A stretch of 39,557 nt of DNA from an uncultured Bacteroidales bacterium. Its GTDB lineage: Bacteria; Bacteroidota; Bacteroidia; Bacteroidales; Muribaculaceae. A model generated the notes under the pieces. It searched no databases and was not told where the DNA came from. It saw nothing but the letters and a program-made list of their open reading frames with translations. Location: positions 1 to 39,557 of the forward strand of contig CACYGX010000023.1 in NCBI GenBank assembly GCA_902774055.1, in the 5' to 3' direction. Of this stretch, positions 32,275 through 39,557 are shown piece by piece. Within the stretch, counting starts at the first letter, position 1; each line of letters begins with the position of its first letter. Both the position numbers and the translations under genes were made by a program.

Positions 32275-33897
32275 ATGAAAAGTAAAAAATTATTATTCAC
32301 TTTATTTGTGTTTGCTTCGACGATGTCGATAATGGGCAATATGAACGCCCAAGCACAGACACGTGAAGCACCCGACTGGAGAAAACTTCATTACCTGTCC
32401 GAAGAAGAAATGCGAACCCCTGTGAGGAGCATCAACTTCGCGGAGACACCTGCGCCAACCGAGGCACCCCGCTTCGTGGCAGAGTTTGAGCCCATGCAGG
32501 GCGTGACGATTGCCTATCCGCTGGGCATACCACTTGACTTGGTTAAATCGTTGGCCGATAACTGCCAGGTATATTGCATCGCTCAGCAGTCCCAGCAGTC
32601 AACGGCACGGACGCGTTTCATCAACGCGGGTGTGAACATGGATCGTGTCACCTTTGTGGACGCGAGAACTGATTCCTACTGGGTGCGCGACTACGGCCCG
32701 TGGTATATCTTTGCCGGCAAGAGTCCCGCCATCGTCGATAACGTGTATAATCGTCCACGGCCCTACGACGATGAGATACCCTCGGCTTTTGCCACGTTCT
32801 GGGGTATCCCCCTGTACAGCATGAACCTGAAACACACTGGCGGCAACATGATGGAGGACGGACGCGGACACGCTGTTAGCGACGATTTGGTCATTTCAGA
32901 GAACAACAACGACGAGGCCAACGTGCGCAAGAAGATGCTCGACTACCTGGGCATCGACAACTACCACATCACCATTGACCCACAGAACGATTACATAGCC
33001 CATGTCGATTGCTGGGGAAAATACCTAGCCCCTGATAAAATCCTGATTGCTAAACTGCCGCAGAGCGACAGGAGATATGAGAACTATGAGTCCGTGGCCA
33101 ACTATTTCGCCTCGACCAACTGCTGCTGGGGCTATCCCTACAAGGTGTATCGCGTCGAAGAACCCGGTGGCAGCACCCTTGCTCCCTACACCAACAGCCT
33201 TATCCTCAACAAGCACGTCTATGTGCCGATGGGCAGCAACAGCACTTACAATGAGAAAGCGCTGCAGGTCTATAGGGAGGCCATGCCCGGCTACGAGGTG
33301 ACGGGCGTGTACAACACATCCAGCAGCATCCAGTGGCTCAACACCGATGCCCTGCACTGCCGTACGCGCGGAGTGATGGACTTCAACATGCTGTATGTCG
33401 ATCACAGGGACGTGCTCTTCGGCACGCAGCAGTGTACTGATTCCATCGCCATCACGAGCAAGTTCATCGCCTATAGCGGAAAGCCCCTGAAGGCCGACTC
33501 GCTCTTGGTCTATTACAGCATTGACAATGGCCCCTACCAGATTGCACATATGACACCCACCGGCGTTCCCGATGAGTATGTGGGCTACATCAAGGGTTAT
33601 TTCCAGGCGTCAGAGATTGACTACTACGTCTTCGGTGCCGACGAGTCAGGACACCGCTATCAGCAACCAGTGTTCGGCGAGCTGGATCCCCACCACTTCA
33701 CTGTCAACGTTTCCTTTATCCTGGGCGACGCTAACGACGATGGTCGTGTAGATATTGCCGACGTGGCTACGCTGATCGATTACCTCCTGGGCAGCAATCC
33801 TTCGCCATTTAACACCGCGGCTGCCGATGTAGAAAGCGACCGCGACATCAACGTGGCTGACGTCTCAGCCCTTATAGATATGCTTTTGGCGAATTAA
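32275..33897 (+). CDS. Secreted Porphyromonas-type peptidylarginine deiminase with C-terminal dockerin
   Basis: This is a 540-aa secreted guanidino-modifying enzyme of the agmatine-deiminase/PPAD fold, predicted to turn arginine into citrulline. A signal peptide ends near NMNAQAQ. The catalytic set known from P. gingivalis PPAD is all in place: Trp136-x-x-Asp139 (SYWVRDY), His243-x-Asp245 (AHVDCWGKY), Asn307 (YTNSLIL) and the nucleophile Cys362 (TDALHCRTR). Arg160 and Arg162 (YNRPRPYDD) match the pair that holds the carboxylate of a C-terminal arginine. A beta domain covers about 390-478. Residues about 484-538 are a type-I dockerin-like pair (GDANDDGRVDIADVATLID, then DVESDRDINVADVSALID). 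PPAD instead ends with a T9SS sorting domain. It is not agmatine deiminase, because it is exported and keeps the PPAD-specific segments. It stands alone with its own promoter and terminator. Confidence 0.92.
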   Translation: MKSKKLLFTLFVFASTMSIMGNMNAQAQTREAPDWRKLHYLSEEEMRTPVRSINFAETPAPTEAPRFVAEFEPMQGVTIAYPLGIPLDLVKSLADNCQVYCIAQQSQQSTARTRFINAGVNMDRVTFVDARTDSYWVRDYGPWYIFAGKSPAIVDNVYNRPRPYDDEIPSAFATFWGIPLYSMNLKHTGGNMMEDGRGHAVSDDLVISENNNDEANVRKKMLDYLGIDNYHITIDPQNDYIAHVDCWGKYLAPDKILIAKLPQSDRRYENYESVANYFASTNCCWGYPYKVYRVEEPGGSTLAPYTNSLILNKHVYVPMGSNSTYNEKALQVYREAMPGYEVTGVYNTSSSIQWLNTDALHCRTRGVMDFNMLYVDHRDVLFGTQQCTDSIAITSKFIAYSGKPLKADSLLVYYSIDNGPYQIAHMTPTGVPDEYVGYIKGYFQASEIDYYVFGADESGHRYQQPVFGELDPHHFTVNVSFILGDANDDGRVDIADVATLIDYLLGSNPSPFNTAAADVESDRDINVADVSALIDMLLAN

Positions 33898-38840: not shown

Positions 38841-39557
38841 ATGTGTATTTTAATCTTCAGGAGAGGTTGGCTTCCATTTCTTACAATACTCATTGCGTTC
38901 GGTGACTTCCTACCGGTTCATGCACAGTCGGGGATTCGTCCTCGAGGGGACGTTAACTGCGATTGGGAAGTGACCATTGCCGACGTGAACGTGCTGATTG
39001 CTTCTATCTTGAAGGGGACGGAGTACCATTCTTTCTATACCTATGACCTTGACATCAACAGCGACAAGGAAATCACAATAGCCGATATCAATCTGGTCAT
39101 CGATGCTATCTTGGGCGGGAAAACATTGGCTCCCATGCCTTCCTACTCGGGGACGCTGCCAGTGCTCTACATCAACACCGAGGGATACCGCGACATCGTC
39201 AGCAAGGAGAACTACCTCCAAGCCACCTGGTGGCTTGACGCAATGGATGTTGAGGGCTATGAGCCCCTCGGGTCGGCGCGTGAGTCCCTCGGGATGCTGG
39301 TCAAAGGGCATGGCAACTACACCTGGACCGATGTCAGCAAGAAATCATTGAGGCTCAAGTTGGATGACAAGCAACGGATGCTGGGCATGCCGTCCAACCG
39401 GCACTGGGTATTGCTGGCGTGCGCCGATAACTGGCCCGTGGGACTGGTGAGCAACGCCCTGCCGTTTGAGATCGGCAACCGGATGGGGATGCCATGGAAC
39501 CCCAAGATGGAACCTGTGGAAGTCGTGCTCAACGGCGAGTACATGGGCCTTTACCTG
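38841..39557 (+). CDS. CotH-family protein with N-terminal dockerin (partial, runs off the end)
   Basis: An open frame of 239 codons runs to the last base of the window without a stop. A signal peptide (about residues 8-32; LPFLTILIAFGDFLPVHAQ) is followed by a dockerin-like domain: GDVNCDWEVTIADVNVLIA (about 38-56) and LDINSDKEITIADINLVID (about 69-87), two Asp/Asn-rich calcium loops. From about residue 100 comes a CotH kinase-like region: LPVLYINTEGY, LLVKGHGNYTWTDV-like SLGMLVKGHGNYTW, KKSLRLKL, HWVLLACADNWP and GEYMGLYL at the edge, all typical of CotH proteins, an atypical kinase-fold family. It starts on the base after the stop of the beta-helix gene. Dockerin at the N-terminus is uncommon; the C-terminal part is unseen. 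Confidence 0.8.
   Translation, partial: MCILIFRRGWLPFLTILIAFGDFLPVHAQSGIRPRGDVNCDWEVTIADVNVLIASILKGTEYHSFYTYDLDINSDKEITIADINLVIDAILGGKTLAPMPSYSGTLPVLYINTEGYRDIVSKENYLQATWWLDAMDVEGYEPLGSARESLGMLVKGHGNYTWTDVSKKSLRLKLDDKQRMLGMPSNRHWVLLACADNWPVGLVSNALPFEIGNRMGMPWNPKMEPVEVVLNGEYMGLYL

Follow-up and report, generated by a model that had tools for sequence, protein, structure and literature searches.

The gene at positions 32275 to 33897 of the forward strand of the window, that is, of the whole stretch of 39,557 nucleotides from an uncultured Bacteroidales bacterium of the Muribaculaceae that we analysed, raises the question of whether it encodes a peptidylarginine deiminase of the kind known from Porphyromonas gingivalis (PPAD), and what a dockerin does at the C-terminus of such an enzyme. 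The parts of earlier papers cited here describe PPAD as without counterpart among prokaryotes and restricted to a single species (PMC5445135), as "unique to pathogenic Porphyromonas species" (PMC6147916), and as having P. gingivalis for its only known human-associated producer (PMC6367333); other excerpts add P. gulae and a further Porphyromonas (PMC12599369, PMC8840051), give P. intermedia and F. nucleatum as without a PPAD ortholog (PMC4487231), and separate the PAD and agmatine deiminase lineages within Porphyromonas (PMC10394638). From the analyses reported here we consider it highly probable that the gene encodes an exported PPAD-type exodeiminase of C-terminal arginine which carries a dockerin in place of the T9SS tail and which would most likely be docked on a cohesin.

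The gene is an intact single open reading frame of 540 amino acids without an internal stop, and its coordinates had been given correctly in the original prediction, the end coordinate counting the stop codon. All of its features lie on the + strand. A putative Sec-type signal peptide free of cysteine occupies approximately residues 1-28 (32275..32358, boundary placed by eye) and appears to be followed by a pro-segment-like stretch of about residues 29-59 (32359..32451), which lies just ahead of the region alignable with mature PPAD or coincides with its beginning, the PDB alignment starting at residue 55. The catalytic, guanidino-group-modifying domain (approximately residues 60-365, 32452..33369) was placed by phmmer and by the Pfam model PAD_porph (PF04371), which matches residues 88-364 above its cut-off with an E-value of 1.7e-27. 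When the protein was compared to PDB sequences by phmmer, the five top distinct sequences were all PPAD (E 1.6e-103 to 8.8e-101), followed in sixth place by 1xkn, a "putative peptidyl-arginine deiminase", at 8.8e-12. The top PPAD alignment spans residues 55-477 and so takes in both the catalytic domain and the Ig-superfamily domain of PPAD (about residues 376-477, 33400..33705, start approximate; the domain is named in the part of PMC4487231 cited here), which places the difference between the two proteins in the tail. There the Pfam model Dockerin_1 matches residues 483-538 (33721..33888; E 1.8e-9, 38.1 bits against a cut-off of 22.9), and both loop-helix repeats of a type I dockerin are present, the second loop being somewhat degenerate by eye; the two-loop dockerin originally described is thus confirmed, at the position where most relatives have a T9SS sorting domain. 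Pfam and NCBIfam scans recognised no T9SS C-terminal domain (PF18962, TIGR04183 or CHU_C) in the protein. Because that domain is a matter of export and not of catalysis, we label the protein a PPAD-type enzyme with another tail rather than PPAD. In 16 of 16 comparisons with relatives the core gave dN of 0.045-0.101 against dS of 0.333-0.627, a dN/dS of approximately 0.10-0.27, and this constraint together with the E-values excludes a chance likeness.

Active-site residues were mapped by alignment to the 4yt9 chain, in which the chain index plus 43 gives the PPAD number and reproduces the residues named in the consulted part of PMC4487231. All 14 mapped PPAD residues are identical in the window protein. 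The original prediction had rightly reported that the catalytic residues and an arginine pair are kept, although the numbers it gave for P. gingivalis PPAD, Trp136 through Cys362, belong to the window protein, the PPAD numbers being W127 through C351. The catalytic set, with the window number first, is W136/W127, D139/D130, H243/H236, D245/D238, N307/N297 and C362/C351, the nucleophile (33358..33360). According to the same part of PMC4487231, R152, R154 and Y233 of PPAD grip the free carboxylate of the substrate, which explains its exo-specificity; these correspond to R160 and R162 (32752..32760) and to Y240, the last within a segment (32992..33012) that also holds I241/I234, H243, D245 and C246/C239, comprising Michaelis loop and catalytic residues of PPAD. 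The further active-site residues T188/T180, T357/T346 and D358/D347 are likewise identical. One residue named for PPAD, N235, is replaced by alanine in the phmmer alignment. Since all mapped active-site residues are identical, the window protein would be expected to use the thiol of C362, together with H243, D139, D245 and N307, to convert, as the calcium-independent PPAD type does, the C-terminal arginine of peptides or proteins to citrulline with release of ammonia while R160, R162 and Y240 hold the free carboxylate; the signal peptide would take the enzyme through the Sec pathway, and the Ig-like domain is retained beside the catalytic one.

PF04371 spans both PPAD and agmatine deiminases, which belong to one superfamily and have the catalytic W, D, H, D, N and C in common, and the window protein might therefore be an agmatine or free-arginine deiminase that has been called PPAD through this shared model. 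We regard that as very improbable. The NCBIfam agmatine deiminase models TIGR03380 and NF010070 do match the window protein weakly, scoring 38.4 and 39 bits where the cut-offs lie at 381.8 and 483. These cut-offs alone are not decisive, since L001 (G000:C6, 351 aa), the agmatine-deiminase-like protein of the same genome, itself falls under them: it scores 385 bits with PF04371, and its best NCBIfam models are those same agmatine deiminase models, at 223 and 228 bits. Other evidence separates the two kinds. In alignment L001 has K, A and T at the positions of R152, R154 and Y233, and it is without the Ig domain and the tail, whereas the window protein keeps the carboxylate site, which L001 and L003 of the same genome both lack. 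The gap in the PDB ranking (1.6e-103 for PPAD, 8.8e-12 for the next sequence) argues in the same direction, and the signal peptide, Ig domain and dockerin indicate an exported protein. In a 75-row tree, the 72 PPAD-type rows, which include P. gingivalis PPAD, are separated with an SH-aLRT of 98 from L024 and the genome's two other PF04371 proteins, the outgroup branches being very long; the grouping with agmatine deiminases that would have contradicted the original proposal was absent. On the PDB ranking, the model scores far under the cut-offs, the R152/R154/Y233 site and this tree, we rejected the agmatine deiminase reading, and the assignment of the protein to the PPAD type, as first proposed, stands. 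The genome has a third PF04371 protein, L003 (G000:C12:47226-47969, 297 aa), with lysines at the R152 and R154 positions and only weak NCBIfam matches to agmatine deiminase models.

The PPAD-type family is far wider than its Porphyromonas reputation. The earlier statement that homologues occur mainly in Porphyromonas does not hold: matches at 1e-40 were found in 128 of 393 Bacteroidales genomes taken in an even draw, representing 76 of 207 genera, and strong matches (1e-80 or better) in 108 of the 393, the genome of the window counted. The other 20 of the 128 genomes hold a weaker class only, with best E-values of 1.6e-41 to 6.9e-51. Closer to the window, 20 of 61 genomes (its own and relatives) had matches at 1e-20: 14 of the 37 genomes in the genus, one of them with just a fragment at the end of a contig, and 6 of the 24 from other families. 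Named genomes, when scanned, yielded at least 584 relatives, of which the best 80 loci were kept; wherever the titles of these 80 name an animal it is a herbivore, in agreement with the gut Bacteroidales origin that had been suggested.

Residue conservation was counted over the order in 135 of the 139 listed matches besides our own, leaving out four of the weak class (G063, the second of G069, G177 and the second of G246); the 80 pattern-selected named loci were used in the residue-mapping alignment and kept out of these counts. Among the 114 strong relatives, defined by at least 37% core identity and lying outside the genus, H236, D238 and N297 are kept in all 114, C351 and R152 each in 113 (1 gap in each case), R154 in 112 (1 gap, 1 Y) and Y233 in 108 (3 S, 2 G, 1 T). 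The weaker relatives number 21, of which 18 (L275-L287, L289, L291-L294) keep both arginines but have glycine at Y233, methionine at C239 and glycine at D347; going by these sequences, they are a second PPAD-like subfamily across Bacteroidales with an altered pocket. The arginine loop is different in the remaining three weaker relatives and in L273, which sits at the boundary of the strong group. By eye the 18 proteins of the second subfamily mostly carry T9SS-type tails.

The argument that connects PPAD with rheumatoid arthritis leans on its being confined to Porphyromonas. If the present reading is true, a PPAD-type site in approximately a quarter of Bacteroidales genomes (108/393) would make citrullination of C-terminal arginine a common bacterial activity, and animal commensals would be available for studying its original role. 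Against the novelty of a wide PPAD-type family counts a passage in PMC8891310 stating that homologs are detectable in oral, intestinal and environmental microbes and that a functional one occurs only in P. gingivalis; that passage is silent on whether agmatine deiminases were excluded. Excerpts from two further papers report PAD/ADI homologs and citrullinated antigens, detected by antibodies, in some Firmicutes and Proteobacteria (PMC11121387) and mention P. copri strains encoding peptidylarginine deiminase (PMC12959208). Neither a wide PPAD-type family nor a dockerin-tailed PPAD is described among the literature matches listed, as far as their titles and the starts of their abstracts go, subscription journals being mostly outside their scope.

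The window protein resembles P. gingivalis PPAD (PDB 4yt9, 5ak7, 6i0x) in its catalytic and Ig-like domains, in the 14 residues and in having an export signal. It differs, besides the alanine at N235, in having a dockerin where PPAD has a T9SS C-terminal domain (PPAD is described as anchored by A-LPS in the part of PMC5997701 available) and in its host, a ruminant-type gut bacterium rather than an oral pathogen. Unlike in P. gingivalis, no gingipain-like Arg protease was found in its genome among the C25 and C11 families.

To follow the tail through the family, tails of the named loci and of the 114 strong relatives were classed by regular expression, and Pfam confirmed 34 proteins, two loci cut by contig ends (L130, L141) being left out of that check. 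The regular expression gave 25 dockerin ends, 54 T9SS-type tails and one with neither among the best 80 of at least 584 named loci. Of the 114 strong relatives, 98 are complete with a T9SS-type tail and 3 have a dockerin (L017, L120, L207); the rest are cut or unclassed, including 12 "other" proteins, 4 of them cut by an end and several sorting-tail-like by eye. Pfam found PAD_porph in all 34 proteins examined, Por_Secre_tail in 30 and Dockerin_1 in 3. In a 56-row tree the window protein falls in a dockerin-tailed clade of 10 rows (100/99) nested in a clade of 27 (100/98), the other 17 rows of which comprise 14 T9SS-tailed, 2 dockerin-tailed and 1 with neither tail. P. gingivalis PPAD joins L021 (100/93) within the wider Bacteroidales set, at a point where two long branches meet and the program issued a warning. 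Dockerin and T9SS tails are exchanged five times on both trees, with a 5%-95% range of 5-5 over 200 bootstrap trees of the 56-row set, and four of the five changes are forced by well-supported branches; the count is blind to gain versus loss, and L207 is absent from the trees. Among 16 relatives in the genus the dockerin is 39-69% identical to that of the window protein, compared to 83-91% for the core, and some of these relatives carry a visibly different dockerin (L041); a tail that diverges much faster than the core and is replaced by different dockerins behaves as a module.

Rumen Bacteroidales of family f101 have T9SS-tailed PPAD-like proteins (L116-L119, with L049-L055 of the same kind) that share the core and fall in the sister group on the tree. 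They are 65-74% identical to the window protein by whole-protein or best-segment comparison, and differ from it in that their tail is a T9SS sorting domain of type A (L116 matches TIGR04183) rather than a dockerin. Over the core the window protein is 70-73% identical to the proteins of four f101 genomes and at most 48% identical to those of the other families listed, while none of the 5 genomes from other genera of its own family has a match at 1e-40. The window ClpB was compared across 20 genomes. It is 75-76% identical to that of five own-family genomes and 63-66% to those of f2, f4, f48, f83 and f102; for f101 the value is 63% over the full length in two genomes and 71% over approximately residues 140-727, the sole matching part, in two others. 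In G323 and G236, two of the 20, only a remote ClpB paralog at 48-50% was recovered, and the genus genome G005 showed 47% identity over the full length and 78% over a fragment. Given a core close to f101, no match in the genomes sampled from other genera of its own family and a ClpB that shows no such closeness, the simplest account is that the gene passed between the genus and f101 and that its tail was swapped; it was thus probably exchanged horizontally with this T9SS-tailed rumen family. On the tree the genus is sister to the T9SS-tailed group, a topology compatible with either side as donor.

A gene of this history might be a recently acquired or decaying copy that has no function in the genus. 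Its presence in only 14 of 37 genus genomes (one a contig-end piece), its absence from all five genomes sampled from the family's other genera and the lack of conserved neighbours would fit such a copy, but the intact frame, the retention of all mapped residues and a core dN/dS of approximately 0.10-0.27 in every one of 16 comparisons make this a most unlikely account. With regard to the neighbours, nine further genes of the window, located between 20472 and 38837, gave 0 matches in 74 loci searched, and flanks are shared only between a few of 18 relatives and differ among most, for which reasons an operon or conserved neighbourhood was rejected.

The genus is rich in dockerins and retains the T9SS. 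Dockerins number from 29 to at least 89 per genome in all 37 genus genomes, whereas 23 of the 24 genomes from other families have 0-2 each, and the genome of the window, G000, has at least 151 dockerin matches with 150 of 247 candidates scored. Por_Secre_tail matches show the reverse, with 2-8 per genome in all 37 genus genomes and 26 to at least 77 in 20 of the 24 others, the remaining four having 0, 0, 1 and 5. The exception in the other families is G039, in which 38 dockerins coexist with 71 sorting tails and the PPAD-like protein likewise ends in a dockerin. SprA_N was detected in 34 of 37 genus genomes, and G000 encodes five C25 proteins of 1155-1189 aa (L111-L115; G000:C13:25387-39108, four in a row, and C20:45407-46525), all above the cut-off of the PorU model at 644-930 bits versus 420; loss of the T9SS as the reason for the dockerin was rejected on these grounds. 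G000 thus has several T9SS sortases and few tails that are recognised as T9SS. No clostripain of family C11 was found in G000, and since each of the five C25 proteins is scored as a PorU sortase, no Arg-specific protease partner was identified among C11 and C25; C-terminal arginines might be supplied by host trypsin or by other bacterial proteases.

Cohesins are few. Only 28 of 61 genomes have any cohesin match at 0.001, and the single match in G000 is weak, at 28.3 bits in one scan and 24.1 bits, exactly the cut-off, in another. The protein concerned is L026 (G000:C8, 644 aa), which combines BspA-type leucine-rich repeats, the cohesin and an internal dockerin with a tail-like end that Por_Secre_tail does not match. 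Of the 151 dockerin loci of this genome 20 were sampled, and in 16 of them the end of the protein lies no more than 8 residues beyond the dockerin; in the other four the dockerin directly follows the signal peptide (L187, L189) or is followed by at least 23 residues (L182, L183). A terminal position is thus the rule for the dockerin, though with exceptions.

Given the known role of dockerins, we infer that the C-terminal dockerin of the enzyme, with calcium, would most likely dock on a surface protein of the producing cell that bears a cohesin. The part of PMC8542988 available offers a parallel in Ca. Stygibacter, where exported enzymes carry C-terminal dockerins, T9SS-type anchoring of a cohesin protein is suggested and a cohesin-dockerin complex with a CTD-bearing scaffold is inferred; unlike that organism, G000 shows no large multi-cohesin scaffold, only the one cohesin match. 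The genome in the cited part of PMC5831590 is described there as without cohesins and dockerins, in line with other Bacteroidetes genomes, and a passage in PMC10266427 reports dockerins in a few Bacteroidales single-cell genomes. Counted against the docked exodeiminase are the alanine at N235, one weak cohesin match versus at least 151 dockerins, and the want of an Arg-specific partner and of a conserved neighbourhood. The main competitor is that the dockerin is itself a sorting tail, the T9SS of the genus with its several PorU proteins reading dockerin cargo and sending the enzyme out with no docking on a scaffold. The scarcity of cohesins fits this, as do SprA_N in 34 of 37 genus genomes, the five C25 proteins above the PorU cut-off, the inverse numbers of dockerins and sorting tails inside and outside the genus, the terminal position in 16 of 20 loci and the repeated swap of one tail for the other on the same enzyme. 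A sorting signal accords poorly, however, with dockerins that are non-terminal in 4 of 20 loci, internal in L026 and N-terminal at window position 38841; Por_Secre_tail may also miss divergent tails such as the end of L026, and G039 has its 38 dockerins alongside 71 sorting tails. We consider the sorting tail unlikely and are similarly doubtful of a broader proposal in which PPAD-type deimination of C-terminal arginine would be widespread and old in Bacteroidales, the P. gingivalis factor would be one specialised branch, and the dockerin would be interchangeable with the T9SS tail in dockerin-rich lineages, where the T9SS that they keep, with several PorU sortases, would recognise it. The natural tail swaps provide a test of the role of dockerins in Bacteroidota that keep the T9SS.

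Several smaller observations were made along the way. The N-terminal dockerin in the window belongs to a gene at 38841-39557 (+) that runs off the end, in which a signal peptide is followed by a dockerin and then by the start of a CotH kinase domain. L189 (G000:C12:15780-16860) likewise has its dockerin right after the signal peptide, and what follows resembles, in its motif, the start of a formylglycine-generating-enzyme-type domain. The gene next to L026 encodes a protein of 219 aa with a dockerin at its end. At five named loci (L030, L063, L066, L068, L079) the match ranges suggest a second PPAD-like copy near the first, and one MAG contains two PPAD-like proteins with different dockerins, L048 (JAEETL010000056.1) and L035 (JAEETL010000001.1), which are 66% and 84% identical to the window protein and which a binning error may have brought together.
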